This document shows, piece by piece, positions 3,080 to 38,536 of a stretch of DNA of 64,000 bases. The notes beneath the pieces are model-generated. The model had not been told where the DNA came from, made no database searches, and was given only the letters and a program-made list of their open reading frames with translations. The stretch spans positions 12,648,001 through 12,712,000 of the forward strand of contig CM034546.1 of NCBI GenBank assembly GCA_020055645.1, read 5' to 3'. A program made the position numbers and the translations under genes. This DNA is from Tomocerus qinae (lineage: Eukaryota > Arthropoda > Collembola > Entomobryomorpha > Tomoceridae). Numbering within the stretch: position 1 is the stretch's first letter; every line of letters begins with the position of its first letter.

Positions 3080-4215
3080 ATGAACATTGCGCTGATAAAA
3101 GGTATAATTCCTCCCAACAAAAACTTTGAAACATCAAATAATGCCATTCCAAAGGAAGAACGTAAAACTAAAATAATCCTTGACTCCAAGTGGTGGCCAG
3201 AAGAGAAGCACCTTCTTCAAGCGTTTCTTGAAAGAAAAGAAGAAAATAACAAATTGATTGACATTTTGAAAGATAATTTGACAAAGAGTAAAAAGAGATC
3301 AGCGTTATCAACCAAGGAGCCGCCGTCTCCGGAATGGGAGGAGTTGGAAAAACGACAATTGCAAAATGGTTCGCCATTCAATTCCAAGATTCTTATGATC
3401 ACATTATTTGGATAGACAGCGGCGAAGAAAATTTTTCTATTTCGTTCTACGATTTGGCTAAAGAGTTGAAAGTTGATGCAACTCTTCGACTCAATTATAG
3501 AGCACATGAGCTTATAAATCAAGGTGGGCATTTGATAATCTTCAAAACTGCACAGTCAATTGACTATGTGATGACATTCTTGAAAAGTCCCTCAATCAGC
3601 GACTACCGATTAGAAAATGGAGAGAAGTTCATCTTCTTAAAATTGGGACTAAATAATGGGAAGAAAATATCTCTTAAAGAATGCACTTTTGGCGAAAATG
3701 TTCCAAATGATTTACAACATTTGAGATTAGAATATGTGGAAATGCTGGATGGAGAGGGATGTCTACGAGAATTTCATGATGTATATCCCATGATTTCAAA
3801 TCTTCTGAAGACTTTAACAATAAAATGCTCCCTCGGATCATCAATATTCAAAATCGAGATCAATGACAATCTTCAATCCTGCTTTTCCATTACATTAGAA
3901 AATTGCATCATACAAATCCAAAATGACATGCGCATAATTCCGACTGAAATTGATTTTCGAGACGTCCAATTTGAAGAAATTGACGAGGAAAAATATTATG
4001 ATGCTGATTATGAAACTGATTTTCATTCCAATGATGAATATTATGATGAAGAGAACGATGATGACCATGATGATAAAGACGAAAATGATAGTGAAGAGCG
4101 TTCAGACGAAATAAATGTTTTTTGTTTGAATGATTTTATTGATTTTCATCAAACAAAGATTTTGACTCTCCACGGCAGAAACATGAGGATGAAACTAGAC
4201 GAGTCACTCAGCTAA
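3080..4215 (+). pseudogene. NB-ARC P-loop fragment with frameshift and acidic tail
   Basis: NB-ARC domains are STAND-class ATPase switches found in APAF-1, plant NLRs and bacterial regulators. From about 3301 frame 1 reads INQGAAVSGMGGVGKTTIAK, a full NB-ARC strand plus Walker A; MGGVGK starts at 3334. It continues with IIWIDSGEEN, like the segment following the P-loop. At about 3526 GGHLIIFKTAQSID resembles the Walker B block LLIFDNA, but the catalytic Asp is replaced by Lys. The helical N-terminal part (WWPEEKHLLQAFLERKEEN, ILKDNL) lies in frame 2 (3080 on), and frame 1 is closed by a TAA at 3289-3291, so a frame change is needed between about 3290 and 3330. The rest of the ATPase (ARC lobes) is missing. 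It is replaced by a region with vaguely LRR-like lines (LQHLRLEYVEMLDGEGC) and an Asp/Glu-rich tract (3970-4110). I favour a decayed or rearranged gene; an unrecognised intron is possible. Confidence 0.6.
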
Positions 4216-5091: not shown

Positions 5092-8000
5092 ATGAAGTCA
5101 GGCACTTATATTTGCAGATTGATATTATTCACCTGTTTGAAAATTGCTGTTTACTGTGAGCAATTAACCCCAATTAAGTCAGACTTTGCCATTGGAACCA
5201 CTATTGCACAATCAGGTAAAATTTCATAAAAAATATATAAAATGCTTATACATACCTAAGTAGTTTTAAAGATTGAACTATTTGTTTGTCCAGCAACCAA
5301 AAATCATAGTCAAGTAGTCTTCTGTAAGATTCCACTAAAGAAAATAGAGGGAGAGGAAGCTGGCGTGGCTTTCATTTTGGAAGACGAGGACAATTTACTA
5401 AAGAACTTTAAACAAGATCTGTGCACCCACGTCATTTTTGGTCCGATTTCATTTGACGACGATTTAAGCATTAGGTTTGGTAAGAGAAAGAAATACACGT
5501 TCTAAATTGGAGTAATTTTTGCAATTGAATTTATTTTCTATAATTTACTAATAAATAGATATAAAGGCGTTTCGAGACAAAAATCCCGCTCTCAAATTAT
5601 TGGTTGAATTCACAATTTATCAACACGAAAATTTAGAATACGATAACTTTCATTTCCATGCTTTGACAACCATGCGTCAGATTCCTAAATATAGATACAA
5701 TTATATACGCTTAATGAAATACACAGCAAAGTAAGTAAACCATTACTCACTTATCGATGAGCATTAACTGAAATTTTTTGATGAATTATTTATTTTTAAC
5801 ATTTTAATATAGACAGTATGGATTTGACGGAATATGTTTGGATACCAGCTTTTCACTTAACGATGGACGAAATAAGTTTAACAAAGATGGATTTCTTCAT
5901 ATGGCTAAGGTATAAGCATTTATTAAAATTATGGCAACTTGGGCAACGATTTAATGGTAACTGAGGCGTCATTATTTATTATTGGTATTAAATTACTTTT
6001 TCACAGGGAGAATAATATCTATTTTAGATTACTATATAACAATTGGATTAATATAATGTAATTTTTTTAATCATCTAAAATATAAAAGAAGCATTACGAT
6101 TAAATTTTACTATAAATATTTTTGCAGGAGTGGAAGTCCGAATCACAAAACGATGGACTTCTTATAGCCATCGAACTACGCGCTCTTCCATTCAACAGAT
6201 TAGAAAAAGTTCCTATGGCCGAAATCACAAGAATATTTGACTTTGTTATTTTAAAAGCGTTTTACTCATTCGACGATTATTCCAGCTTCCATTACGACAC
6301 ATTGCATCACGCTCCATTACATTCACCCTATCAAAGTTTGCCTCTTGAAGATGACGATGATAAGCAAATTTGGTCCGATGAAGAAGATGACAAAGATACA
6401 GTTTCAGGAGTTTTGAAGGCTTTACACCAGCGAAACGTTAATCCAAATTCTTTAGTATTAGCAACTCCCCTTTTCGGTCGGTCACTAAATCGATCACACC
6501 CAAACATGTTTAACCCAGAACTTTTCATGGAACACGAATGGAGCTACCTTCAGGTAAATTTGAAATTACTAATTTCACCATTACCTTAGATTGAATGTTT
6601 AAAAACTAATCTGATAAATGTACAAAGGTCTGCACATTGGCGATGTCAAGAAATGATACTTGGAAAATGCTTTGGAATAATGCGTCAAAAGTCCCATACC
6701 TAAAAAATGCAAGTGACACTGTAGGATTTGAAAATTCTGCAAGCATTTACGAAAAAGTACGATTGGCAAATCAATATGGATTGGCTGGAATTATTGCGTC
6801 GGATATTTCTCAAGATGACTATATTTCTCGTTGCTCAAATGTCTCCTACCCACTTTTGAAATCAATTAATTATGCACTGTCCCAAACACACGCATTTCGA
6901 CCAGTTTGTGTGCAAAAGGAAAACCACGATAAAATTGATACACATTTTTCTCATCCAATATTTACTATGAGTTCTTACGTTATACCATTTTCTGATGCTT
7001 CGACAATAGAAGTCAATTGTACTATCGAAAGCAGTCTCGATGACGAAATTTCTTAGATAAAGGTTAGCTATAATAATTACCATAGTCTAAATACTGTAAA
7101 TATTTTGTATGCCAAAAACTAAATGGAAATGGTTAACTATAATATTGACTTTTGTTTTATTGCTACTACTAGCATTCTAAAGGTAAAGAAGCAGAACTAA
7201 AAAATGACATAACCACTGAAATTACTGAAAAGAAATTGTACGGCTGTTCTCTCAACAAAAAGATGTCTACTCTAAAAGTAAGGAATTGTGATGAAAAAGA
7301 CGCGGGAAAATATTTTTGTGTCGCAAGAAATACCTTTGGGGAATTCAAGTCCTCATTTTTCCTGATGCATAAAAAACATCCTTGTAAGTTAACTCCATAA
7401 TTACAAAAGATGTACAAATAATGCTTTTATTCTGATTTTCGTCTTCTAGCTTCGAGCACTATAAAAACGTTTAATTTCTTTTTGACAGATATAGTAGCGG
7501 ACGGTGGAATTTGGTTGGAAGGCACTGATCTTGACTTCAATTTGGCTAAAGAATCGAAAAGTAAATAAAAAAATACTTTTCCAATCATATTTTAAATCAT
7601 TTCATAACTTTGTTTCTCTTTTCCTGAAAGCAATCAAGGATCACGTAAGCATCGTGGTTTGTGGAATATATCTACAGGAGACATTTGTAGAAGGGAAAAA
7701 CAAACTGGACAATTTTGATGGAAATTTATGTACTCATGTCATTTATGGCATGGTAAACATAAACATGACGGGGTTGCAAATAGAAAATCCGGAAATCGTG
7801 TGTAAGTCGTTTATCAATACTAAACAATTTTAATTTTTAATAACCATTACAAAAATTAAAAACTTACACAATTTTAGACTCCATAAGAAAAATGTCTTGG
7901 CTTAAAGCAAAATATCAACACCTGAAAATACTTATACGGATTAATGTTGGAAGTAAAAATATTAGGGAACGCCCCAATTCAGTTGGATCTACTTTCACGA

Positions 8001-9648
8001 ATGATGCTGAACAAAAACTAATAAATCGTTTGAAAACAGTTTTGAAGTAAATTTTAATTTACTTACCTTATTATTAAAATTTACAGCATGAAAAATAAAT
8101 AACACTTATGTACATAGAGACTGTGCTTTGGATGGTATTGATGTGGATAGCTCTTTCTATTCGATAATGTCGCACAAGATTGGATTCTTCAATGTAAGTT
8201 TTTCTAAAATGCACATCAACATCGATTTACTCAATACAATGCTTTGTTTGGTTACCGCTCCATATTGTATTGTGAAATAGACCCTTAAAACGGATTTGAA
8301 AAAGGATGGAAAACTTTTAACGGCAGAATATGAATCAGAACCGATTGGAGAAAGACCCAAATTTCATTTTGGATTGTTTGATTTAATATTTGTGAAAACA
8401 TTTCGAGTTGAATATTTTAATGATGGTACTAATAACACGCCATTCCTTACCCATCGGGATGCACTATATTCAAAAGTAAAAATGGAATACAGTATTGATG
8501 ACCATCTCAGTTCTTTGGTGGCTAAGAATCTAGTGCCGGCAAAAAAATTGATCCTAGGAGTTACATTCTCGGGTTTAAAATATTTTGCATTTCCCCATCA
8601 TTATCCATCCTACCCAAATTATTTACATTACCACACAGTTACAAAAGTAGCAGAAGACGATGACTATCGCTACCAGATGTATCCTACATCTGAAGGTTTT
8701 GACAAGGTAATTAAGGACAAGGTAAGTAATTCTCTTGAGTGCAGAATTAAGCAATTGTGTGGTTTGATTTCTATTTAAATTTTGAAGGTCTGTCTACTTC
8801 TAAAATCCAACAAAAGCGAATCAATGTTTATTTGGGATCGCTCTGAAAAAGAAGCTATCATTTTAAGAGGGAACAATGACATTCGGATTGACACTCCTAA
8901 AAGCATTTACGAAAAAGTTTCCTTTCTGCGTAGTTTAAGGTTGGGAGGAATTATGGTTTGGAGAACTGAGGCTGATGACGTACGAGGTCGATGTGGAGGT
9001 GTCACTTATCCTCTTTTGAGAACCATTAATTACGCTTTCAGTGACGATAGACTCAAACCAACCAACTCCGATTCTACGAAACAAGCTGACTCATTTTCTA
9101 CTACCGCGACAAGAGAATCATCTTGTGGCGTTGGATGGATTGTGACCACTGTCATTTTCAGTTGTATTTCGCTTTTCTCGATTATCTACATACTTTGCTG
9201 GAAAACTAAATTGGTAATGTCTGCAGTTGAATAACTATAAATACTACACTTATAATTATGAAGTGAAATTATGTTATACTTATTTAAAAGGTTGGAAAAT
9301 AATAAATTTTCCCTAGAGTATTTTGTATTTCTGTAACACGAAAACGACTATGTCCTTTTTTGAAGTAAAAAGCAGTACATCCTAACCTAACGCCAAATAC
9401 AAAATTTTACAACCACATTTAGTGATTAGTGACATTGACGACGCTGTATGAAATGGCATTTGGACTTTTAGACCTTGGAAATTATTTATTTAGTAATAAT
9501 ATGGCGTTTCATATGTATGCTGCAAATACTAATACTAATATATTTTTTTCAATACCAGGGAGGAGTTGAATCAAATTTACAAGCCAAGTTCACCGTCAAA
9601 AGTCAAGAAAATGACGATTGTGGAGATAATCAGGCTCTTTTTGCTTAA
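5092..9648 (+). CDS. Membrane-anchored tandem GH18-like / Ig protein
   Basis: Fourteen exons read with GT-AG junctions and compatible phases: 5092-5215, 5294-5479, 5559-5730, 5813-5909, 6128-6553, 6628-7062, 7173-7383, 7489-7560, 7631-7801, 7878-8046, 8118-8193, 8281-8721, 8788-9213, 9559-9648 (about 1,031 codons). Residues 1-23 form a signal peptide. GH18-like domain 1 (about 44-425) shows CTHVIFG, the active-site strand as DGICLDTS (166-173) and LATPLFGRSL. The Ig domain (about 445-545) has Cys466, DAGKYFCVARN with Cys529, and a TAG at codon 478. GH18-like domain 2 (about 576-965) shows CTHVIYG, DGIDVDSS (693-700) and GGIMVWRTEADD. A transmembrane helix (about 976-998) and a 33-residue tail follow. 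Both domains lack the catalytic Glu of DGxDxDxE, so a chitin- or glycan-binding receptor or adhesion role is inferred. If the TAG is always read as stop, only domain 1 plus half an Ig would be made. The last intron is optional: without splicing the frame ends at 9234. Confidence 0.8.
7054..7056 (+). other. In-frame TAG at the Ig-domain tryptophan position
   Basis: This TAG is codon 478 of the predicted protein, in exon 6, three codons from the donor at 7063. It lies 12 residues after Cys466, where I-set Ig domains carry their invariant Trp (TGG). Reading resumes at once with IK and, after the intron, HSKGKEAEL, as expected of strand C and C'. A single G-to-A change, an assembly error, or A-to-I RNA editing (UAG read as UGG) would all explain it. 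Confidence 0.75.
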
Positions 9649-14410: not shown

Positions 14411-16918
14411 TTAAAATGGTCGTGTCTTGGTTGTCCTCATAAATATAATGCATAATGTATGTATGACAATTGTAACGGAATTTTTAATAGCTGATACTAG
14501 TGCAATGATTTTGACTTTTAAGGTTGCTCGTATTTCCCATAACAAAGCTAAAATGTAGGTCAGGGCTATACAAATGCCAATGTAAAATATAGTTGAAATA
14601 TTCGAATTATAAAATGTTAAAGGGCGAGGTGGACTTATTTCCCAGCATGTTTGGCAAGTGGAAAAGTTAAATTCATTGAAATGGTCCATCCATAAATTAA
14701 AAAGACCCGAGTGACTGACAATCAGCAATTTGTTCTTGAAATATGAATTAAACATCGGAGCCTTATGGGAATTTAATCCCGTATACAAAGAAAATGATAG
14801 AAATGAGTTTTCCTCTGTTCCATGATATAATTGTCGTTTAGGTTCAACACCGCCGTGTTCGGGATTCCACCATGAGTCATTTAACATACGATGCAAACGG
14901 GAACTTCTGAGAATCAGAGCAGAGTTATTGCATTGGGCAAGCCATTTCTGGGGAGTCAAGTAAGGAAACCCAAGTGGAAATCGAAGTGTTTTGTTAATAC
15001 TGCTCATTATATTGGCCATTTTGGAAAATCCGATGCTCTTGTACGACGGTAGAATGTCTGCAATCAACCTTTGAAGTGAAAACAGTTGGCCGGTAACTTT
15101 TTTGTGAACAAAGTTATAGGAATACATGGCAGCTTTAACTATACTTTGGTTTTCATTATCGAAATCAATTTTATATCCAAGATGAATTCGATTAAAGGGA
15201 TTATATGTCTCACATTTTATTGGTAGATTTGCAGAACCGTTCTCTTTGTGACAATAATATGATATCAGTATTTCCAATTGTTTATTCACATCAAGAAAGA
15301 AGGGATCGAGGTTTGTGGCACCTTTGATTTCACTAAATGCAGTTATGTCAGTGAGATTTGCTAAATGTTCAATTGACTCAATTTGTTTGACTGGCCTTGG
15401 CTCTATTAAATCAGTGATGACAATTCCTTTGTAGCAGTTGGTAATCACAATGAACATGAGCAACAATGGACCCATTACTAATCTAACCCAAAGAGTTTTC
15501 TCAGCCTTTGCTGACAGGGAGTAACTGACTTCCAACAAATATGCATAACAAATCATGAGAAATGGAATACTTTCATCTTTTGTGTAATATACAATGCCAT
15601 AGACGAAGGCAATTACAGAAATAGTTGTGAGAATAATTGCCAGCCAAGCATACGGTTCAAATGGTTTAATATATCCATAGAACGAAAGACTCTCATCCTC
15701 TAAAACGACGCAAGAAATAAAATTGTAAGACTCTTCCATTGTTGGAATTAAAGCAAACTGTGGACTGCGACCTAATTCATAAACATTATTAAATTGAAAA
15801 TAGAAAATAACATGGTAGGAATGGTAGGAAACTTTTTTTGTATTAAAACAAGTATTATGGTTCCCTATTCTGTCAGACACTGATAAAGTAGAATTTGAAA
15901 AGTGTTCGAAAATGACAGAAGCAATTGGAAGAGAAAGACTGTTTCTTCCTGTGAAAAAATAATTCGTAAAGTATGCATTTTCTGCTGGCTTTCCACAGTA
16001 ATTGACATCCCCAGATTTGGCTTTCCCAATCATTCGCCCATAATCTTCGTCCATAATTTTCAATGCAAATGTCTTCGTGAAGCTCAATAATATTTTACTA
16101 GCCCTTTTACGCAGTGATGTGCCACTGCAAGTATTTTGGGAGCAAAAAGGTATAGATTTGTAACTAATTCTTAATTGAGGCAAGTCACGAGTTGTGCGAT
16201 ATCCGAGCTGATGTGGACAAACAAAATACATTACTGGTTCATTATCATCCAGCCATGATAAGAGAAACCAGGATTTTGATAGAAATAATTGATGTACTTT
16301 TTTTGGATGCGAGTGTGCTCTGTCCTTTGGTAAGTCAAAAAATAATTTATAATTCGACTTTGCAGACTCGAGAATATTTCTTTCCATAACAATATAGACG
16401 GAAGAATGCTCTCCAAAGTTGTACCATTTATTAGTAAGTGGCTTTTCAGATCCTTCAGTATCAGACATCTCACTGATCTGTATGATTAACGCCATATCCA
16501 GGAAAACTTGCGGATCAAAATTAATCAGGATGTGCACAATGCAATTAAAGCGCCTCAATGTGAGTGGCCGAGTTATGCTCTGGTTATGTTTTTTGTATGC
16601 GGTTTCACAACGTTTGACATAATATCCTCCACCAAAACTAAAATCATTTGGGTCACAGTGGCGTTCTCTTTCTTTAAACATTAATGTCGTTATAGCGAAA
16701 GGATTTTCAATCTCATGCACTTGTTTGGTTAATGATTCTTCCATGGGTGTAGAAAACGTTGTCTCATGCCGAATCAGATTGACATAGCAGGAATCCTCCA
16801 TTTGCACTAGTTTTGACAGTTTCCAACCGAAAGACAATTTTACAATTAAAATGAGAAAAACGTACGTTGTGTTGTTCAATTGGCTCACGAAATGAACGAA
16901 ATTAATGGACTGCTTCAT
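14411..16918 (-). CDS. Divergent ionotropic receptor (IR)
   Basis: A single-exon chemosensory receptor of the IR branch of ionotropic glutamate receptors, expected in dendritic membranes of sensory neurons. The first ATG is at 16918; the frame extends two codons further but only from a TTG. The predicted protein is about 835 residues. Residues 1-32 form a signal peptide (VFLILIVKLSFG). A long, poorly conserved extracellular region follows, then FYGYIKPFEPYAWLA leading into TM1 (about 423-445), the pore/TM2 region (about 453-470), TM3 with RLVMGPLLLMFIVITNCYKG (about 479-502), and a second ligand-binding lobe beginning SIEHLANLTD. TM4 is about 772-795. The typical N-terminal domain and glutamate-binding residues of iGluRs are not evident, as is usual for divergent IRs. 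It is intronless and lies in a duplicated segment with a dead paralogue at 35894-38536, about 21 kb away. Confidence 0.85.
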   Translation of the reverse strand: MKQSINFVHFVSQLNNTTYVFLILIVKLSFGWKLSKLVQMEDSCYVNLIRHETTFSTPMEESLTKQVHEIENPFAITTLMFKERERHCDPNDFSFGGGYYVKRCETAYKKHNQSITRPLTLRRFNCIVHILINFDPQVFLDMALIIQISEMSDTEGSEKPLTNKWYNFGEHSSVYIVMERNILESAKSNYKLFFDLPKDRAHSHPKKVHQLFLSKSWFLLSWLDDNEPVMYFVCPHQLGYRTTRDLPQLRISYKSIPFCSQNTCSGTSLRKRASKILLSFTKTFALKIMDEDYGRMIGKAKSGDVNYCGKPAENAYFTNYFFTGRNSLSLPIASVIFEHFSNSTLSVSDRIGNHNTCFNTKKVSYHSYHVIFYFQFNNVYELGRSPQFALIPTMEESYNFISCVVLEDESLSFYGYIKPFEPYAWLAIILTTISVIAFVYGIVYYTKDESIPFLMICYAYLLEVSYSLSAKAEKTLWVRLVMGPLLLMFIVITNCYKGIVITDLIEPRPVKQIESIEHLANLTDITAFSEIKGATNLDPFFLDVNKQLEILISYYCHKENGSANLPIKCETYNPFNRIHLGYKIDFDNENQSIVKAAMYSYNFVHKKVTGQLFSLQRLIADILPSYKSIGFSKMANIMSSINKTLRFPLGFPYLTPQKWLAQCNNSALILRSSRLHRMLNDSWWNPEHGGVEPKRQLYHGTEENSFLSFSLYTGLNSHKAPMFNSYFKNKLLIVSHSGLFNLWMDHFNEFNFSTCQTCWEISPPRPLTFYNSNISTIFYIGICIALTYILALLWEIRATLKVKIIALVSAIKNSVTIVIHTLCIIFMRTTKTRPF

Positions 16919-17389
16919 TTTCAAAATTTATAAAATTTATTTAATATTTTTGCGTGATGTTCAAACCTAAAAGCAACTTTTCAACGTATGTGGTTTAATT
17001 TATTCGTATTTTCCACAAAATGACAAGTTAAATATTGTGTGAGAATGGTAAATGTTTGATATTTATTCACCATTCGCTTAAACTATTTCTAACTATCGAT
17101 TTCGATTTTGTTATCAACTGATATCCTGTTCAAATTTAATGAAAAAACCCTACATAATTAATTTGAAAGGGGCATTGGGTGAATAATTTGTTGAGTTTAT
17201 TCCAAAATTAAAAACTACGCTCAATTCAGATGAACAAATTTTCAAGAGTTAGTCACATATAATATTAGGTTTGGTGTGAAGAGTAGAACAATTGACAAAT
17301 TTTATTTATGCAGCAAAATGTTGTGAACTGTAAGAAATAAGAAGAGTCAGTAATGTACCTTTTAATTCTACGATATGAGAACCAGGTAG

Positions 17390-19255: not shown

Positions 19256-22200
19256 TAGTGCTAGTATTTCATGCAACAGTTTAAGAGTAAAGAAATTATA
19301 TACACGTTTATTTCGATAACGTGATATATATTTCCCTAACTTGTTAAACCGAGGAAAAACTCATAGTTTGTTCTGAAAAGGCTATAAAGCCAAACTAAGA
19401 TTTTATTATTATTACGGTTTAACTTTTCAGGTTATGCGATATATTTGTCCGACATTCTCTGTCTCATTACAATTGCACGTTGCTAAATGTTTATTATTAA
19501 ATGACTATGAAATAGATCTTTATCTTTGAGTAATTTTTTATTTCTCTAAAATTCGTTACTTATTTATAATTATTCAGACGAACTTTTGTAATATCTTATC
19601 TCTACATTTCTTTATAGGAAGCATTTAGTTAGTGGAAGTATTTCAGAAAACAGTTTAAAAGTTAAGCAATTAAATACACAATTGTTTTATAAATGTGATA
19701 TATATTTCCTTAACTTGTTGAACATAGTAATTACCCACAGTTTGCTCTAAAAAGTCCATAAAGCCGAATTAAATTTTTGTCAATGTTACGGTTTAATTTT
19801 TCAGGTTACGCATGATATTTCTCCGACATTCTCCGTCTCATCACAATTTTAGGTTGCTAAATATCCGAATTAAGATAATTCTAATTCTGTTGATGTACCG
19901 ACTTTTATTTCTCAAAAAGGTTGTATCAAATTTCAGTTTGTGGTTTTTTAAAAAATCCGAATATAGATGAATCTTACTCTATAGATGCTGAGACTCTGTT
20001 TTCGCCATTATTTTTATCCAAACTCTGTGTTTGTAGTCACAAAACCAAATATAGAGCATTGTTACTCTATAGGTGTTTGGAGTCCTATTTCGCTATTAGG
20101 TTTTATCAAATTTCTGTTTCTGTTTATATTGAAAAATCCGAATATAGAGGATGCTTACGCTGTAGATGTTTTGACTCTTATTTCGCCATTAGTTTCTATT
20201 CAAACTCTTTGTTTCTACACAAAAGTATTTGGACTCCTATTTTAACTCTTTACCGTAAATATTTTATTTTTATGACACATTAACTTAGTGTTAGTATTTC
20301 ACGCAACAGTTTAAGAGTAAAGAAATTATATACACGTTTATTTCGATAACGTGATATATATTTCCCTAACTTGTTAAACCGAGTAAATACTCACAGTTTG
20401 TTCTGAAAAGGCTATAAAGCCGAACTAAGATTTTATTATTATTACGGTTTAACTTTTCAGGTTATGCGATATATTTGTCCGACATTCTCTGTCTCATTAC
20501 AATTGCACGTTGCTAAATGTTTATTATTAAATGACTATGAAATAGATCTTTATCTTTGAGTATTTTTTTATTTCTCTAAAATTCGTTACTTATTTATAAT
20601 TATTCAGACGAACTTCTGTAATATCTTATCTCTACATTTCTTTATAGGAAGCATTTAGTTAGTGGAAGTATTTCAGAAAACAGTTTAAAAGTTAAGCAAT
20701 TAAATACACAATTGTTTTATAAATGTGATATATATTTCCTTAACTTGTTGAACATAGTAATTACCCACAGTTTGTTCTAAAAAGTCCATAAATCCGAATT
20801 AAATTTTTGTCAATGTAACGGTTTAACTTTTTCAGGTTACGCATGATATTTCTCCGACATTCTCCGTCTCATCACAATTTTAGGTTGCTAAATATCCGAA
20901 TTAAGATAATTCTAATTCTGTTGATGTACCGACTTTTATTTCTCAAAAAGGTTGTATCAAATTTCAGTTTGTGGTTTTTTAAAAAATCCGAATATAGATG
21001 AATCTTACTCTATAGATGCTGAGACTCTGTTTTTGCCATTATTTTTATCCAAACTCTGTGTTTGTAGTCACAAAACCAAATATAGAGCATTGTTACTCTA
21101 TAGGTGTTTGGAGTCCTATTTCGCTATTAGGTTTTATCAAATTTCTGTTTCTGTTTATATTGAAAAATCCGAATATAGAGGATGCTTACGCTGTAGATGT
21201 TTTGACTCTTATTTCGCCATTAGTTTCTATTCAAACTCTTTGTTTCTACACAAAAGTATTTGGACTCCTATTTTAACTCTTTACCGTAAATATTTTATTT
21301 TTATGACACATTAACTTAGTGTTAGTATTTCACGCAACAGTTTAAGAGTAAAGAAATTATATACACGTTTATTTCGATAACGTGATATATATTTCCCTAA
21401 CTTGTTAAACCGAGGAAATACTCATAGTTTGTTCTGAAAAGGCTATAAAGCCAAACTAAGATTTTATTATTATTACGGTTTAACTTTTCAGGTTATGCGA
21501 TATATTTGTCCGACATTCTCTGTCTCATTACAATTGCACGTTGCTAAATGTTTATTATTAAATGACTATGAAATAGATCTTTATCTTTGAGTAATTTTTT
21601 ATTTCTCTAAAATTCGTTACTTTTTATAATTATTCAGACGAACTTTTGTAATATCTTATCTCTACATTTCTTTATAGGAAGCATTTAGTTAGTGGAAGTA
21701 TTTCAGAAAACAGTTTAAAAGTTAAGCAATTAAATACACAATTGTTTTATAAATGTGATATATATTTCCTTAACTTGTTGAACATAGTAATTACCCACAG
21801 TTTGTTCTAAAAAGTCCATAAATCCGAATTAAATTTTTGTCAATGTTACGGTTTAACTTTTCAGGTTACGCATGATATTTCTCCGACATTCTCCGTCTCA
21901 TCACAATTTTAGGTTGCTAAATATCCGAATTAAGATAATTCTAATTCTGTTGATGTACCGACTTTTATTTCTGAAAAAGGTTGTATCAAATTTCAGTTTG
22001 TGGTTTTTTAAAAAATCCGAATATAGATGAATCTTACTCTATAGATGCTGAGACTCTGTTTTTGCCATTATTTTTATCCAAACTCTGTGTTTGTAGTCAC
22101 AAAACCAAATATAGAGCATTGTTACTCTATAGGTGTTTGGAGTCCTATTTCGCTATTAGGTTTTATCAAATTTCTGTTTCTGTTTATATTGAAAAATCCG

Positions 22201-25200
22201 AATATAGAGGATGCTTACGCTGTAGATGTTTTGACTCTTATTTCGCCATTAGTTTCTATTCAAACTCTGTGTTTCTACACAAAAGTATTTGGACTCCTAT
22301 TTTAACTCTTTACCGTAAATATTTTATTTTTATGACACATTAACTTAGTGTTAGTATTTCACGCAACAGTTTAAGAGTAAAGAGATTATATACACGTTTA
22401 TTTCGATAACGTGATATATATTTCCCTAACTTGTTAAACCGAGGAAATACTCATAGTTTGTTCTGAAAAGGCTATAAAGCCGAACTAAGATTTTATTATT
22501 ATTACGGTTTAACTTTTCAGGTTATGCGATATATTTGTCCGACATTCTCTGTCTCATTACAATTGCACGTTGCTAAATGTTTATTATTAAATGGCTATGA
22601 AATAGATCTTTATCTTTGAGTAATTTTTTATTTCTCTAAAATTCGTTACTTTTTATAATTATTCAGACGAACTTTTGTAATATCTTATCTCTACATTTCT
22701 TTATAGGAAGCATTTAGTTAGTGGAAGTATTTCAGAAAACAGTTTAAAAGTTAAGCAATTAAATACACAATTGTTTTATAAATGTGATATATATTTCCTT
22801 AACTTGTTGAACATAGTAATTACCCACAGTTTGCTCTAAAAAGTCCATAAAGCCGAATTAAATTTTTGTCAATGTTACGGTTTAATTTTTCAGGTTACGC
22901 ATGATATTTCTCCGACATTCTCCGTCTCATCACAATTTTAGGTTGCTAAATATCCGAATTAAGATAATTCTAATTCTGTTGATGTACCGACTTTTATTTC
23001 TCAAAAAGGTTGTATCAAATTTCAGTTTGTGGTTTTTTAAAAAATCCGAATATAGATGAATCTTACTCTATAGATGCTGAGACTCTGTTTTCGCCATTAT
23101 TTTTATCCAAACTCTGTGTTTGTAGTCACAAAACCAAATATAGAGCATTGTTACTCTATAGGTGTTTGGAGTCCTATTTCGCTATTAGGTTTTATCAAAT
23201 TTCTGTTTCTGTTTATATTGAAAAATCCGAATATAGAGGATGCTTACGCTGTAGATGTTTTGACTCTTATTTCGCCATTAGTTTCTATTCAAACTCTTTG
23301 TTTCTACACAAAAGTATTTGGACTCCTATTTTAACTCTTTACCGTAAATATTTTATTTTTATGACACATTAACTTAGTGTTAGTATTTCACGCAACAGTT
23401 TAAGAGTAAAGAAATTATATACACGTTTATTTCGATAACGTGATATATATTTCCCTAACTTGTTAAACCGAGTAAATACTCACAGTTTGTTCTGAAAAGG
23501 CTATAAAGCCGAACTAAGATTTTATTATTATTACGGTTTAACTTTTCAGGTTATGCGATATATTTGTCCGACATTCTCTGTCTCATTACAATTGCACGTT
23601 GCTAAATGTTTATTATTAAATGACTATGAAATAGATCTTTATCTTTGAGTAATTTTTTTATTTCTCTAAAATTCGTTACTTATTTATAATTATTCAGACG
23701 AACTTCTGTAATATCTTATCTCTACATTTCTTTATAGGAAGCATTTAGTTAGTGGAAGTATTTCAGAAAACAGTTTAAAAGTTAAGCAATTAAATACACA
23801 ATTGTTTTATAAATGTGATATATATTTCCTTAACTTGTTGAACATAGTAATTACCCACAGTTTGTTCTAAAAAGTCCATAAATCCGAATTAAATTTTTGT
23901 CAATGTAACGGTTTAACTTTTCAGGTTACGCATGATATTTCTCCGACATTCTCCGTCTCATCACAATTTTAGGTTGCTAAATATCCGAATTAAGATAATT
24001 CTAATTCTGTTGATGTACCGACTTTTATTTCTCAAAAAGGTTGTATCAAATTTCAGTTTGTGGTTTTTAAAAAATCCGAATATAGATGAATCTTACTCTA
24101 TAGATGCTGAGACTCTGTTTTTGCCATTATTTTTATCCAAACTCTGTGTTTGTAGTCACAAAACCAAATATAGAGCATTGTTACTCTATAGGTGTTTGGA
24201 GTCCTATTTCGCTATTAGGTTTTATCAAATTTCTGTTTCTGTTTATATTGAAAAATCCGAATATAGAGGATGCTTACGCTGTAGATGTTTTGACTCTTAT
24301 TTCGCCATTAGTTTCTATTCAAACTCTTTGTTTCTACACAAAAGTATTTGGACTCCTATTTTAACTCTTTACCGTAAATATTTTATTTTTATGACACATT
24401 AACTTAGTGTTAGTATTTCACGCAACAGTTTAAGAGTAAAGAAATTATATACACGTTTATTTCGATAACGTGATATATATTTCCCTAACTTGTTAAACCG
24501 AGGAAATACTCATAGTTTGTTCTGAAAAGGCTATAAAGCCAAACTAAGATTTTATTATTATTACGGTTTAAGTTTTCAGGTTATGCGATATATTTGTCCG
24601 ACATTCTCTGTCTCATTACAATTGCACGTTGCTAAATGTTTATTATTAAATGACTATGAAATAGATCTTTATCTTTGAGTAATTTTTTATTTCTCTAAAA
24701 TTCGTTACTAATTTATAATTATTCAGACGAACTTCTGTAATATCTTATCTCTACATTTCTTTATAGGAAGCATTTAGTTAGTGGAAGTATTTCAGAAAAC
24801 AGTTTAAAAGTTAAGCAATTAAATACACAATTGTTTTATAAATGTGATATATATTTCCTTAACTTGTTGAACATAGTAATTACCCACAGTTTGTTCTAAA
24901 AAGTCCATAAATCCGAATTAAATTTTTGTCAATGTTACGGTTTAACTTTTCAGGTTACGCATGATATTTCTCCGACATTCTCCGTCTCATCACAATTTTA
25001 GGTTGCTAAATATCCGACTTAAGATAATTCTAATTCTGTTGATGTACCGACTTTTATTTCTCAAAAAGGTTGTATCAAATTTCAGTTTGTGGTTTTTTAA
25101 AAAATCCGAATATAGATGAATCTTACTCTATAGATGCTGAGACTCTGTTTTTGCCATTATTTTTATCCAAACTCTGTGTTTGTAGTCACAAAACCAAATA

Positions 25201-28200
25201 TAGAGCATTGTTACTCTATAGGTGTTTGGAGTCCTATTTCGCTATTAGGTTTTATCAAATTTCTGTTTCTGTTTATATTGAAAAATCCAAATATAGAGGA
25301 TGCTTACGCTGTAGATGTTTTGACTCTTATTTCGCCATTAGTTTCTATTCAAACTCTGTGTTTCTACACAAAGGTATTTGGACTCCTATTTTAACTCTTT
25401 ACCGTAAATATTTTATTTTTATGACACATTAACTTAGTGTTAGTATTTCACGCAACAGTTTGAGTAAAGAAATTATATACACGTTTATTTCGATAACGTG
25501 ATATATATTTCCCTAACTTGTTAAAGCGAGTAAATACTCACAGTTTGTTCTGAAAAGGCTATAAAGCCGAACTAAGATTTTATTATTATTACGGTTTAAC
25601 TTTTCAGGTTATGCGATATATTTGTCCGACATTCTCTGTCTCATTACAATTGCACGTTGCTAAATGTTTATTATTAAATGGCTATGAAATAGATCTTTAT
25701 CTTTGAGTAATTTTTTATTTCTCTAAAATTCGTTACTTTTTATAATTATTCAGACGAACTTTTGTAATATCTTATCTCTACATTTCTTTATAGGAAGCAT
25801 TTAGTTAGTGGAAGTATTTCAGAAAACAGTTTAAAAGTTAAGCAATTAAATACACAATTGTTTTATAAATGTGATATATATTTCCTTAACTTGTTGAACA
25901 TAGTAATTACCCACAGTTTGCTCTAAAAAGTCCATAAAGCCGAATTAAATTTTTGTCAATGTTACGGTTTAATTTTTCAGGTTACGCATGATATTTCTCC
26001 GACATTCTCCGTCTCATCACAATTTTAGGTTGCTAAATATCCGAATTAAGATAATTCTAATTCTGTTGATGTACCGACTTTTATTTCTCAAAAAGGTTGT
26101 ATCAAATTTCAGTTTGTGGTTTTTTAAAAAATCCGAATATAGATGAATCTTACTCTATAGATGCTGAGACTCTGTTTTCGCCATTATTTTTATCCAAACT
26201 CTGTGTTTGTAGTCACAAAACCAAATATAGAGCATTGTTACTCTATAGGTGTTTGGAGTCCTATTTCGCTATTAGGTTTTATCAAATTTCTGTTTCTGTT
26301 TATATTGAAAAATCCGAATATAGAGGATGCTTACGCTGTAGATGTTTTGACTCTTATTTCGCCATTAGTTTCTATTCAAACTCTTTGTTTCTACACAAAA
26401 GTATTTGGACTCCTATTTTAACTCTTTACCGTAAATATTTTATTTTTATGACACATTAACTTAGTGTTAGTATTTCACGCAACAGTTTAAGAGTAAAGAA
26501 ATTATATACACGTTTATTTCGATAACGTGATATATATTTCCCTAACTTGTTAAACCGAGTAAATACTCACAGTTTGTTCTGAAAAGGCTATAAAGCCGAA
26601 CTAAGATTTTATTATTATTACGGTTTAACTTTTCAGGTTATGCGATATATTTGTCCGACATTCTCTGTCTCATTACAATTGCACGTTGCTAAATGTTTAT
26701 TATTAAATGACTATGAAATAGATCTTTATCTTTGAGTATTTTTTTATTTCTCTAAAATTCGTTACTTATTTATAATTATTCAGACGAACTTCTGTAATAT
26801 CTTATCTCTACATTTCTTTATAGGAAGCATTTAGTTAGTGGAAGTATTTCAGAAAACAGTTTAAAAGTTAAGCAATTAAATACACAATTGTTTTATAAAT
26901 GTGATATATATTTCCTTAACTTGTTGAACATAGTAATTACCCACAGTTTGTTCTAAAAAGTCCATAAATCCGAATTAAATTTTTGTCAATGTAACGGTTT
27001 AACTTTTCAGGTTACGCATGATATTTCTCCGACATTCTCCGTCTCATCACAATTTTAGGTTGCTAAATATCCGAATTAAGATAATTCTAATTCTGTTGAT
27101 GTACCGACTTTTATTTCTCAAAAAGGTTGTATCAAATTTCAGTTTGTGGTTTTTTAAAAAATCCGAATATAGATGAATCTTACTCTATAGATGCTGAGAC
27201 TCTGTTTTTGCCATTATTTTTATCCAAACTCTGTGTTTGTAGTCACAAAACCAAATATAGAGCATTGTTACTCTATAGGTGTTTGGAGTCCTATTTCGCT
27301 ATTAGGTTTTATCAAATTTCTGTTTCTGTTTATATTGAAAAATCCGAATATAGAGGATGCTTACGCTGTAGATGTTTTGACTCTTATTTCGCCATTAGTT
27401 TCTATTCAAACTCTTTGTTTCTACACAAAAGTATTTGGACTCCTATTTTAACTCTTTACCGTAAATATTTTATTTTTATGACACATTAACTTAGTGTTAG
27501 TATTTCACGCAACAGTTTAAGAGTAAAGAAATTATATACACGTTTATTTCGATAACGTGATATATATTTCCCTAACTTGTTAAACGGAGGAAATACTCAT
27601 AGTTTGTTCTGAAAAGGCTATAAAGCCAAACTAAGATTTTATTATTATTACGGTTTAAGTTTTCAGGTTATGCGATATATTTGTCCGACATTCTCTGTCT
27701 CATTACAATTGCACGTTGCTAAATGTTTATTATTAAATGACTATGAAATAGATCTTTATCTTTGAGTAATTTTTTATTTCTCTAAAATTCGTTACTAATT
27801 TATAATTATTCAGACGAACTTCTGTAATATCTTATCTCTACATTTCTTTATAGGAAGCATTTAGTTAGTGGAAGTATTTCAGAAAACAGTTTAAAAGTTA
27901 AGCAATTAAATACACAATTGTTTTATAAATGTGATATATATTTCCTTAACTTGTTGAACATAGTAATTACCCACAGTTTGTTCTAAAAAGTCCATAAATC
28001 CGAATTAAATTTTTGTCAATGTTACGGTTTAACTTTTCAGGTTACGCATGATATTTCTCCGACATTCTCCGTCTCATCACAATTTTAGGTTGCTAAATAT
28101 CCGACTTAAGATAATTCTAATTCTGTTGATGTACCGACTTTTATTTCTCAAAAAGGTTGTATCAAATTTCAGTTTGTGGTTTTTTAAAAAATCCGAATAT

Positions 28201-29705
28201 AGATGAATCTTACTCTATAGATGCTGAGACTCTGTTTTTGCCATTATTTTTATCCAAACTCTGTGTTTGTAGTCACAAAACCAAATATAGAGCATTGTTA
28301 CTCTATAGGTGTTTGGAGTCCTATTTCGCTATTAGGTTTTATCAAATTTCTGTTTCTGTTTATATTGAAAAATCCAAATATAGAGGATGCTTACGCTGTA
28401 GATGTTTTGACTCTTATTTCGCCATTAGTTTCTATTCAAACTCTGTGTTTCTACACAAAGGTATTTGGACTCCTATTTTAACTCTTTACCGTAAATATTT
28501 TATTTTTATGACACATTAACTTAGTGTTAGTATTTCACGCAACAGTTTGAGTAAAGAAATTATATACACGTTTATTTCGATAACGTGATATATATTTCCC
28601 TAACTTGTTAAAGCGAGTAAATACTCACAGTTTGTTCTGAAAAGGCTATAAAGCCGAACTAAGATTTTATTATTATTACGGTTTAACTTTTCAGGTTTTG
28701 CGATATATTTGTCCGACATTCTCTGTCTCATTACAATTGCACGTTGCTAAATGTTTATTATTAAATGACTATGAAATAGATCTTTATCTTTGAGTAATTT
28801 TTTATTTCTCTAAAATTCGTTACTTATTTATAATTATTCAGACGAACTTTTGTAATATCTTATCTCTACATTTCTTTATAGGAAGCATTTAGTTAGTGGA
28901 AGTATTTCAGAAAACAGTTTAAAAGTTAAGCAATTAAATACACAATTGTTTTATAAATGTGATATATATTTCCTTAACTTGTTGAACATAGTAATTACCC
29001 ACAGTTTGCTCTAAAAAGTCCATAAATCCGAATTAAATTTTTGTCAATGTTACTGTTTAATTTTTCAGGTTACGCATGATATTTCTCCGACATTCTCCGT
29101 CTCATCACAATTTTAGGTTGCTAAATATCCGAATTAAGATAATTCTAATTCTGTTGATGTACCGACTTTTATTTCTCAAAAAGGTTTTATTAAATTTCAG
29201 TTTGTGGTTATTTAAAAAATCCGAATATAAATGAATCTTACTCTATAGATGCTGAGACTCTGTTTTCGCCATTATTTTTATCCAAACTCTGTGTTTGTAG
29301 TCACAAAACCAAATATAGAGCATTGTTACTCTATAGGTGTCTGGAGTCCTATTTCGCTATTAGGTTTTATCAAATTTCTGTTTCTGTTTATATTGAAAAA
29401 TCCGAATATAGAGGATGCTTACGCTGTAGATGTTTTGACTCTTATTTCGCCATTAGTTTCTATTCAAACTCTGTTTCTACACAAAAGTATTTGGATTTCT
29501 ATTTTAACTCTTTACCGCAAAAATTTTATTTTTATGACACATTAACTTAGTGTTAGTATTTCACGCAGCATTTCAAGAAATTATATACACGTTCATTTCA
29601 ATACGTGATATATATTTCCCTAACTTGTTAAACCGAGGAAAAACTCATAGTTTGTTTTGAAAAGGCTATAAAGCCGAACACAGATTTTATCAATATTACG
29701 GTTTA
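19256..29705. repeat. Satellite array, about 1,030-bp unit, trimeric HOR
   Basis: About ten head-to-tail copies of a roughly 1,030-bp unit; equivalent points lie at 19921, 20952, 21981, 23010, about 24039, 25070, 26097, 27127, 28157 and about 29185. Each unit contains two diverged half-repeats (GTTAGTATTTCACGCAACAG versus GGAAGTATTTCAGAAAACAG) plus a block of 80-100-bp monomers built around ATCCGAATATAGA. Variants recur every third unit, giving a 3.09-kb higher-order repeat. The overlapping 120- and 86-codon frames in each unit are conserved only because the DNA is near identical; I do not call them genes. The last unit is the most diverged, as expected at an array edge. Confidence 0.95.
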
Positions 29706-35893: not shown

Positions 35894-38536
35894 TTAATAT
35901 GGTCGTGTCTTAGTTGTCCTCATGAATGTAATAGTTACAAACTTCTTAAAAATTGATACTAGTGCAATGATTTTGACTTTTAAGGCTGCTCGTATATCTC
36001 AAAAGAAAGCCAAAACGTAGGTCAGGGCTATACAAATGGCAATGTAAGATATAGTTGAAATATTCGAATTGTAAAATGTTAAAGGGTGAGGTGGACTTTT
36101 TCCCAGCATCAGTGCTTTATGCATGCCAAATCCCGTGTACAAAAAGAATGATAGAAATGAGTTTTCCTCTGTTCCATGATATAATTGTCGCTTTGGTTCA
36201 ACACCACCGTGTTCGAGATTCCACCACGAATCATTCAAACCGCGATGCAAACGAGAACTTTTGAGAATCAGAGCAGAGTTATTGCATTGGGCAAGCCATT
36301 TCTGGGCAGTCAAGTAAGGAAACCCGAGTGGAAATCGAAGTATTTTGTTATTTGTTAATACTGCTCATTATATTGGCCATTTTGGAAAATCCGATGCTCT
36401 TGTAAGACGGTAGAATGTCTGCAATCAACCTTTGAAGTGAAAAAAGTTGTCCGGTAGCTCTTTTGTAACCAAAGTTGTACGAATACATGGCAGCTTCAAC
36501 TATACTTTGGTTTTCATTATCGAAATAAATTGTATATCCAAAATGGATTCGATTAAAGGAACTATATATCTTACATTTTATTGGTACATTTTCAGAGCCG
36601 TTCTTTTTCTGACAATAATATGATGTCAGTATTTCTAATTGATAATTCGAACGAAGATCAAAGGGATCGAGTTCTGCAGCATCTTTGATTTCACCAAGAA
36701 CAGTAAAGCCAGTGAGATTTGCCAAATCAAGGTTTCGACTGGGAAATACCACTAACGGGAAGTTTCCCATTTCCCACTGGGAAATGTGGGTATCAAAATG
36801 GAGTGGGAAATGGGAAGTGTGGGAAATAGTGGGAAATAGAGCCAAAATAGCGCTAAAATTCAAATTTTTTGGCTTTATTTCCCATATTTCCCACTAATTC
36901 CCACTATTTCCCATTTACCACAATTTCCCGCATTTCCCGGACGTCCAACAAAGTGGGGTGGGAAATGGGAATATTCGCAACTCTGTGCCAAATGCTCAAT
37001 TGATTCGATTTGTTTTACTGGACGTGGCTCTACTAAGTCAGTGATGACAATTCCTTCGTAGCAGTTGGTGATTACAATGAACATGAGCAACAATGGACCC
37101 ATCACTAATCTAACCCAAAGAGATTTCTCGGCCTTTGCTGAAAGAGAGTAACTGACTTCCAACAAATACGCATAACAAATCATGAGAAATGGAATACTTG
37201 AATCTTTTGTGTAATATACAACAGCATAGACGAAGGCAATTACAGAAATAGTTGTGAGAATAATTGCCAGCCAAGCATATGGTTCAAATGGTTTAATATA
37301 TCCGTAGAAAGAGAGACTCTCATCTTCCAAAACGACGCAGGAAATAAAATTGTAGGAATCTTTCATTGTTGGAATTAAAACAAACTGAGGACCTAATTCA
37401 TTCACATTATTAAATTGAAAATAAAAAATTACATGATAGGAGTCTTTAGGAGCTTTTAGTCCGTTAAAACAACTATTATGGGGCAACATTTTGTTTGATA
37501 TTGATAAGGTGGAATTTGGAAAGTGCTCGAAAATTATCGAAGCAATTGGAAAAGAAAGACTGTTTCTTCCTGTGAAAAAATAATTCGTAAAATATGCATT
37601 TTCTGATGGCTTTCAACAGTAATTGACAGACCATGTTTTGGCTTCTTCAGTCATTTGCCCATAATCTTGGTCCATAATTTTCAATGAAAATGTCTTTGTG
37701 AAGCTCAAAAGTATTTTACTATCCTTCTTACGCAGTGATGAGCCACTACAAGTATATTGAGAACAAAAAGGTATAGATTTGTAACTAATTCTTAATTGAG
37801 GCAAGTCACGAGTTGTATGATATCCGAGCTGATGTGGACAAACAAAATACATTACTGGTTCATTGTCATCAGGTGATGATAGGAGAAACCAGGATTTTGA
37901 TAGAAATAATTGATGCACCTTTGTTGAATGTGAGGAAGTTGTGTCCTTCTTTGGTAAGTCAAAAAATAATTTAGAATTGGACTTTGCAGACTCAAGAATA
38001 TTTCTTTCCATGACAATATAGACGGAAGAATGCTCTCCAAAATTGTACCATTTATTAGTAAGTGGCCTACCAGATTCTCCAGACATCTCACTGATCTGTA
38101 TGATTAACGCCATATCCAGGAAAACTTGCGGATCAAAATTAATCAGGATGTGCACAATGCAATTAAAGCGCCTCCATGATAGTGGCCGAGTTATGCTCTG
38201 GTTATGTTTTTTGTATGCGGTTTCACAACGTTTGACATAATATCCTCCACCAAAACTAAAATCATTTGGGTCACAGTGGCGTTCTCTTTCTTTAAACATT
38301 AATTTCGTTATAGCGAAAGGATTTTCAATCTCATGCAGTTGTTTTGTTAATGATTCTTCCATGGAAGTAGAAAAGGGCTTCTCATACCGAATCAGATTGA
38401 CATAGCAGGATTCCTCCATTTGCACCAGTTGTGACAATTTCCATCCGAAAGATGATTTCACGATTAAAATGAACAAAAAGTAAATTATGTTTTTCATTTG
38501 ACTGAAGTAATGATCGAAACTAATGGACTTTTTCAT
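35894..38536 (-). pseudogene. Ionotropic receptor pseudogene
   Basis: Paralogue of the intact receptor at 14411-16918, over nearly its whole length. Lesions visible by comparison, from the N-terminal end: TGA for Gly after VNYC (37613-37615); a 258-bp hAT element inserted after SIEHLA (36728-36985); a 7-bp tandem duplication giving SSINK then TAA at about 36352; loss of about 35 codons between SFFLYTG and SPPHPLTFYNS; and TGA in place of Trp in the last membrane helix (35996-35998). The start ATG is at 38536. Several independent disabling changes make function as a receptor very unlikely, although a fragment could still be transcribed. Confidence 0.9.
36728..36985. mobile_element. hAT-type MITE with GGGAAATG words inside the IR pseudogene
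   Basis: A 258-bp element with 8-bp target-site duplication TGCCAAAT (36720-36727 and 36986-36993). The termini CAAGGTTTCGA and TCGCAACTCTG are imperfect inverted repeats. The interior is almost entirely the word TTTCCCAC/GTGGGAAA in both orientations. The intact paralogue has the uninterrupted site (GAGATTTGCTAAATGTTC at about 15353). Confidence 0.9.

Follow-up and report, generated by a model that had tools for sequence, protein, structure and literature searches.

What does the gene at positions 5092–9648 (+ strand) of a 64,000-nucleotide stretch of the springtail Tomocerus qinae genome encode, and is it still intact? The stretch (assembly GCA_020055645.1, contig CM034546.1, positions 12,648,001 to 12,712,000) is referred to below as the window, and positions are counted from its first nucleotide unless a contig is named. 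The original prediction, made from the sequence alone, read the gene as a membrane receptor in which an immunoglobulin (Ig) domain lies between two glycoside hydrolase family 18 (GH18) folds, an order for which it knew of no family. Our analysis makes it probable that the gene is one of a family, at least about 50 strong, of receptors built from one to three inactive GH18 domains linked by I-set-like Ig domains, then a single membrane helix and, mostly, a VEGFR/FGFR-like tyrosine kinase, and that the window copy, which has no kinase and a stop codon in place of the Ig tryptophan (Trp), has most likely been disabled recently. The surprise resides more in the family than in the window copy.

The fourteen exons of the prediction were recovered exactly, with 13 introns that are all GT-AG and 1031 codons before the terminal stop; spliced alignment of the 1031-residue protein to the DNA returned the identical 13 introns, which is a check of aligner consistency rather than independent evidence. 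Profile searches with Pfam and hydrophobicity analysis also upheld the proposed order of signal peptide, GH18, Ig, GH18, membrane helix, and short tail. Exon 1 (5092–5215) carries the start codon and signal peptide, and exons 2–5 (5294–5479, 5559–5730, 5813–5909, and 6128–6553) encode most of the first GH18-like domain, the end of which shares exon 6 (6628–7062) with the first half of the Ig domain, including its B-strand cysteine. Intron 6 (7063–7172, phase 0, GT-AG) divides the Ig domain directly after the C-strand, and exon 7 (7173–7383) supplies the second half with the F-strand motif DAGKYFC. The second GH18-like domain follows in exons 8–13 (7489–7560, 7631–7801, 7878–8046, 8118–8193, 8281–8721, and 8788–9213), the last of which also contains the membrane helix, and exon 14 (9559–9648) encodes a cytoplasmic tail of about 30 residues and then the stop. 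The helix (residues 978–996) is the most hydrophobic 19-residue stretch of the protein (mean Kyte–Doolittle value 2.42), followed by N-terminal residues 4–22 (1.49).

Both GH18 halves clear the Pfam cut-off of 29.6 bits by a wide margin (first half, residues 80–398, E = 8.7e-26 and 91.8 bits; second half, E = 4.8e-22 and 79.5 bits), and the best PDB match of each, over its full length, is the arthropod chitinase OfChtIV (E = 2.5e-19 and 2.4e-16, respectively). The Ig region, searched with an X at the position of the nonsense codon, matches I-set at 1.3e-7 (32.0 bits; cut-off 23.7). Because the intron phases of the first GH18 half (1-1-2-0-0-0) recur one for one in the second, the two halves point to an internal duplication of an exon cassette.

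The claim that no family has this domain order does not hold for this genome. A GH18 profile search of the assembly (334 Mb, 115 contigs) returned 143 stretches, and the window protein, when aligned to loci on the contig here called C1, revealed the same domain order in many of them. Among the stretches, C94:2879-3049, on a small contig, and C1:34101475-34101645 are the same GH18 stretch with identical scores, perhaps an unmerged haplotype. We sampled twenty 10-kb loci on C1 (L009–L028); the architecture of the kinase-bearing paralogs can be written as [GH18-Ig]n(-GH18)-membrane helix-kinase, with a VEGFR/FGFR-like kinase. Tyrosine kinase exons follow the ectodomain in 14 of the 20 loci; in L011, L024, and L025, a listed kinase exon lies within 3 kb beyond the locus edge, and L014, L019, and L027 have no kinase exon in the stretch examined. 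Continuous, stop-free models running GH18-Ig-GH18-helix-kinase were obtained for L015, L020, and L028, and a continuous model with a single GH18, followed by Ig, helix, and kinase, for L012; the models of L016 and L022 contain one stop each. The L012 gene spans 4.0–8.0 kb of its locus and the L015 gene 0.8–6.8 kb, and L020 is encoded on the reverse strand. L025 apparently has three GH18 domains, as read from two overlapping models.

In all three paralog proteins scanned with Pfam (L012, L015, and L020), GH18 scored above its cut-off together with a kinase domain, at 3.1e-74, 3.6e-76, and 1.6e-78, respectively. The predicted kinases of these three retain the catalytic motifs VAVK or VAIK, HGD(L/V)A.RN, and DFG, and, with a kinase placed after the helix, these proteins would qualify as receptor tyrosine kinases (RTKs); the window gene, which has no kinase, would not. 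Among PDB matches of the paralog kinases, the top row is a 678-amino-acid chain labelled EGFR (9.1e-88); next come VEGFR2 (6e-68 and below) and, after it, FGFR and KIT. The short tail of the prediction accordingly stands for the window gene, at about 30 residues, but is an exception in the family, most of whose other members run on into the kinase.

To gauge the size of the family, we took the best 150 kinase exons from a probe search of the genome, 129 of which lie on C1. Within 4 kb of these 129, an exon encoding the GH18 end was found upstream on the same strand in 51 cases, downstream in one, and on the opposite strand in none; at 8 kb, the counts were 53, 6, and 0, the downstream count rising because tandem arrays begin to contribute. 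Pfam GH18 stretches gave the same picture for the full 150 kinase exons, 37 of which have such a stretch within 8 kb upstream on the same strand, two downstream, and none on the opposite strand. Since 51 kinase exons have a GH18-end exon directly upstream, the family comprises at least about 50 genes, all the counted ones on C1. For the other 78 of the 129 exons, the 4 kb upstream contain no GH18-end exon; other ectodomains may join related kinases.

Near the window gene itself, the kinase is missing. The nearest same-strand kinase exon among the best 150 lies 296 kb downstream, and a tblastn search of the 64-kb window with family kinases found nothing at E ≤ 0.1 and, at E ≤ 10, two chance rows that are short or stop-bearing (E = 1.2 and 5.8). 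A kinase hidden within the window was rejected on this ground.

Are the barrels of this family enzymes? The inactive appearance ascribed to the two domains was borne out: FDGICLDTS and LDGIDVDSS stand where DGxDxDxE would be expected, so that the catalytic Glu is replaced by Ser in both, and the window gene has the GH18 fold but lacks the DxxDxDxE motif with the proton-donor Glu that characterizes catalytic GH18 chitinases. That motif was found in none of 17 family models, some of which, such as L012, L013, and L023, model the relevant exon poorly; L027 keeps a Glu within a broken motif, DGIVLDEE. In neither barrel do any of the seven aligned paralogs have the strand-beta8 Trp kept by binding-competent, chitin-binding GH18 proteins. 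The window gene lacks it in its first barrel and retains it in the second, in GIMVWRTEADD, the one barrel among these eight genes to do so. Loss of this Trp speaks against an ordinary chitin-binding groove in most members. Because the catalytic motif was not found and the beta8 Trp is lost in most, the GH18 barrels would be binding modules at best, with the usual chitin groove altered in most of them.

The genes are under purifying selection, as is seen from the low pairwise ratios of nonsynonymous to synonymous substitution rates (dN/dS) across ectodomains and kinases: 0.17–0.29 for pairs of double-GH18 ectodomains, 0.36–0.58 where single-GH18 pairs were compared over their GH18-Ig part, and 0.06–0.21 for the kinases where these were not saturated. 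In every pair compared, dN was higher in the ectodomain than in the kinase.

One element of the prediction failed, namely that the fourteen exons chain in frame. A single in-frame TAG occupies positions 7054–7056 (residue 478) in exon 6. Although both cysteines and the DAGKYFC motif of the Ig domain are present, the codon of its C-strand Trp is the TAG; in the phmmer alignment, the X at this position falls under the C-strand Trp of the D3 Ig domain of FGFR3. Intron 6 begins two codons later, and other family members also show a donor there. A genome search with an exon-6 probe returned 112 rows, 61 of them reaching query position 129; with C1:124393755 left out (intron sequence with three stops in frame) and L027 added to the remaining 60, the position is Trp in 49 exons, Ile in 10, Leu in one, and a stop in the window alone, none of the 60 other same-type exons of this genome having one. 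In a tree of these exons, built from only 89 columns and with the window row on a long branch of unsure exact placement, the 11 exons with Ile or Leu form one branch (support 87/76), and Trp is present in each of the 23 further exons that share the window's side of the main split (support 95/85).

As the stop at 7056 closes a frame, the locus could be read as two separate genes split near 7060. The split would be spanned by the Ig domain, with an intron at the donor position of other members, the second half lacks a separate signal peptide, and the paralogs are continuous across both parts. The division of the Ig domain over exons 6 and 7 implies, moreover, that both barrels belong to one ancestral gene, and we find the two-gene reading scarcely credible.

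Alternative splicing offers no intact chain either. Between 6990 and 7230, every splice choice tried that avoids the TAG deletes part of the Ig domain, and an in-frame chain of this kind was therefore rejected. By a rough matrix built from 12 introns, the best TAG-avoiding donor, after 7011, scores 3.2, close to the 3.7 of the natural donor, and other such donors score 0.1 or less; its use would remove the first Ig cysteine and destroy the domain. This donor is nonetheless one of three routes by which a genuine TAG might be bypassed, the others being stop-codon readthrough and adenosine-to-inosine editing of UAG to UGG, so that the gene could switch between a secreted fragment and a membrane receptor. 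ADAR favours the UAG context, an edited codon would give precisely the Trp that 49 of the 60 relatives carry, and the exons downstream of the stop are well kept. Against this, no unusually strong RNA duplex was found at 7055, where the best partner reaches −25.1 compared with a mean of −26.4 at 29 other places. Ig Trp codons are, besides, ordinary nonsense targets: approximately 4.3% of point changes in the window coding sequence create a stop, and since about 9% of the weighted nonsense changes fall on a Trp codon, a stop at such a codon needs no special cause. We regard bypass by any of these routes as very unlikely, and we find it highly doubtful that conditional editing or readthrough of the stop decides whether a secreted barrel or a membrane receptor is made.

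The question then becomes how long the window copy has been dead, if it is dead. At an 80% threshold, the gene keeps 60 of 100 family-conserved columns before the stop and 55 of 95 after it; at 99%, it keeps 39 of 57 and 33 of 44. Seven paralogs retain more of these columns (0.64 to 0.96 at 80%), the window gene being more divergent from them. No second lesion was found in its 1031 codons. A long-dead pseudogene is ruled out by the single lesion and the equal conservation on either side of the stop, for long disuse would not have left the downstream part equally conserved and free of further lesions. With one lesion in 1031 codons, the TAG reflects a recent loss or else an allelic variant or an error.

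The latter two amount to a reading close to the original prediction, in which the TAG stems from misassembly or belongs to a rare allele and the normal gene encodes an intact, kinase-less GH18-Ig-GH18-helix-tail receptor acting as a decoy, co-receptor, or adhesion partner of the kinase-bearing members. The single lesion and the even conservation fit it, and the tail has its own splice sites and stop. However, the window holds the only copy in the assembly, with no second haplotype copy carrying a different codon, and this sole available sequence shows the TAG. Disabled copies are also normal in the family: among the 60 exon rows read, L022 has an in-frame TAA in its GH18 part in addition to the window's TAG, L010 has an in-frame stop at an Ig cysteine, and stops interrupt the first Ig exon of L027, so that single lesions are not unusual. 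Finally, just one further member was found to lack a nearby kinase in a stretch extended in both directions, and it is itself degraded. This locus, L027/L029 (C1:67384500-67401999, reverse strand), reads GH18-Ig-GH18-Ig, has the Trp in place, and contains no kinase in the stretch examined; it was rejected as an intact kinase-less sister because, besides the stops in its first Ig exon, its model has two more. We consider the intact-receptor reading unlikely, though it merits attention.

A recent nonsense mutation would then be the likeliest cause of the TAG, and the window copy most likely a recently disabled gene that descended from, or served as, a kinase-less receptor of the decoy or adhesion type. 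As assembled, it yields either no stable mRNA or, at most, a truncated protein comprising a GH18 domain and half of the Ig domain. Several points weigh against a disabled member of a kinase-bearing family. Conservation does not fall off beyond the stop and there is no second lesion, and the TAG may be an error or a polymorphism. Absence of the kinase was judged from the best 150 exons and the tblastn search of the window, by which a decayed or distant exon could be missed. The linkage of ectodomain and kinase comes from our own spliced alignments of genomic DNA rather than from transcripts, and the paralog models cover the part from GH18 to kinase. Among these models, L021 has doubtful introns at its ends and L022 ends early in the kinase, and the Ig domain exceeds its Pfam cut-off in two of the three proteins scanned, that of L020 falling below.

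How might such receptors work? By analogy with RTKs in general, the dead barrels would bind a ligand but leave it uncut, spacing or dimerization of the receptor would fall to the Ig domains, and dimerization would turn the kinase on and start phosphorylation signalling. RTKs are mostly classed by their ectodomains, and no animal RTK class is known to us whose extracellular part has a glycoside-hydrolase fold. The family shares with RTKs of the VEGFR/FGFR/KIT type the Ig domain, the single membrane helix, and, in the paralogs, a related tyrosine kinase; it differs in having GH18 barrels in place of most of the Ig array, and the window copy differs further in being kinase-less. Compared with arthropod GH18 chitinases such as OfChtIV, the window gene has the same fold over the full length but lacks the catalytic Glu in both domains and adds an Ig domain and a C-terminal helix. 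The chitinase-like proteins CHI3L1 and IDGF, each a single secreted GH18 domain, resemble it in their dead GH18 domains (matches of 6.2e-6 or weaker for the first half and down to 2.3e-10, to IDGF-2, for the second), but they have no Ig, helix, or kinase; with two GH18 domains, an Ig domain, and a membrane helix, the window gene is not of their type, although its truncated product would resemble one.

A closer parallel in overall design comes from plants, in tobacco CHRK1 and its relatives. These carry a receptor-like (Ser/Thr) kinase of the plant type, whereas the paralog kinases match VEGFR/FGFR/KIT best, a distinction judged without direct comparison with CHRK1. Like the paralogs, the CHRK1 type carries a GH18 ectodomain on a membrane kinase, and 91 plant sequences with a GH18 ectodomain and a kinase are described in parts of PMC5485988, passages of which expect the CHRK1-type ectodomain to be enzymatic and mention no Ig domain. 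Plant GH18 lectins and lectin kinases are also the subject of sections of PMC12355970. We put forward tentatively, as a possibility somewhat short of even, that at least about 50 RTKs with tandem dead-chitinase/Ig ectodomains constitute a diversified glycan- or microbe-sensing repertoire with kinase-less members, parallel to the plant lectin receptor kinases. If true, such a repertoire would represent a recognition system of a new kind and give the plant GH18 receptor kinases a direct counterpart in animals, and the family would open a test of what pseudo-chitinase folds bind when they signal.

The receptor family is large and apparently undescribed in the literature: no animal GH18 receptor kinase was among the matches listed in full-text literature, from which subscription journals are mostly absent. 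In another springtail, Holacanthella duospinosa, sections of PMC5644144 report 23 chitinase-like genes with collembolan-specific expansions and several GH18 domains without the catalytic Glu, including Cht14, 19a, 19b, 20, and 21, and these genes are a candidate lead to orthologs. The word immunoglobulin does not occur in the searched text of PMC5644144, and kinase, chitin, and immunoglobulin have no occurrence in that of the springtail genome paper PMC5490193.

Elsewhere in the window, Pfam searches of seven other open reading frames (ORFs) gave a single weak result, an NB-ARC (1.5e-4) and nSTAND3 match below both cut-offs, in the ORF at 3292–4215 (+), which carries a GGVGKTT P-loop. At 19894–29550 (+), about ten near-identical ORF copies spaced at approximately 1.03 kb form a long-period tandem repeat, on which Tandem Repeats Finder was silent because its longest period is 500. 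An 838-amino-acid ORF at 14411–16927 (−) has a shorter relative at 36875–37612 (−), 84% identical over 219 aligned residues; the two have no Pfam match and look like ionotropic-receptor-type chemoreceptors.

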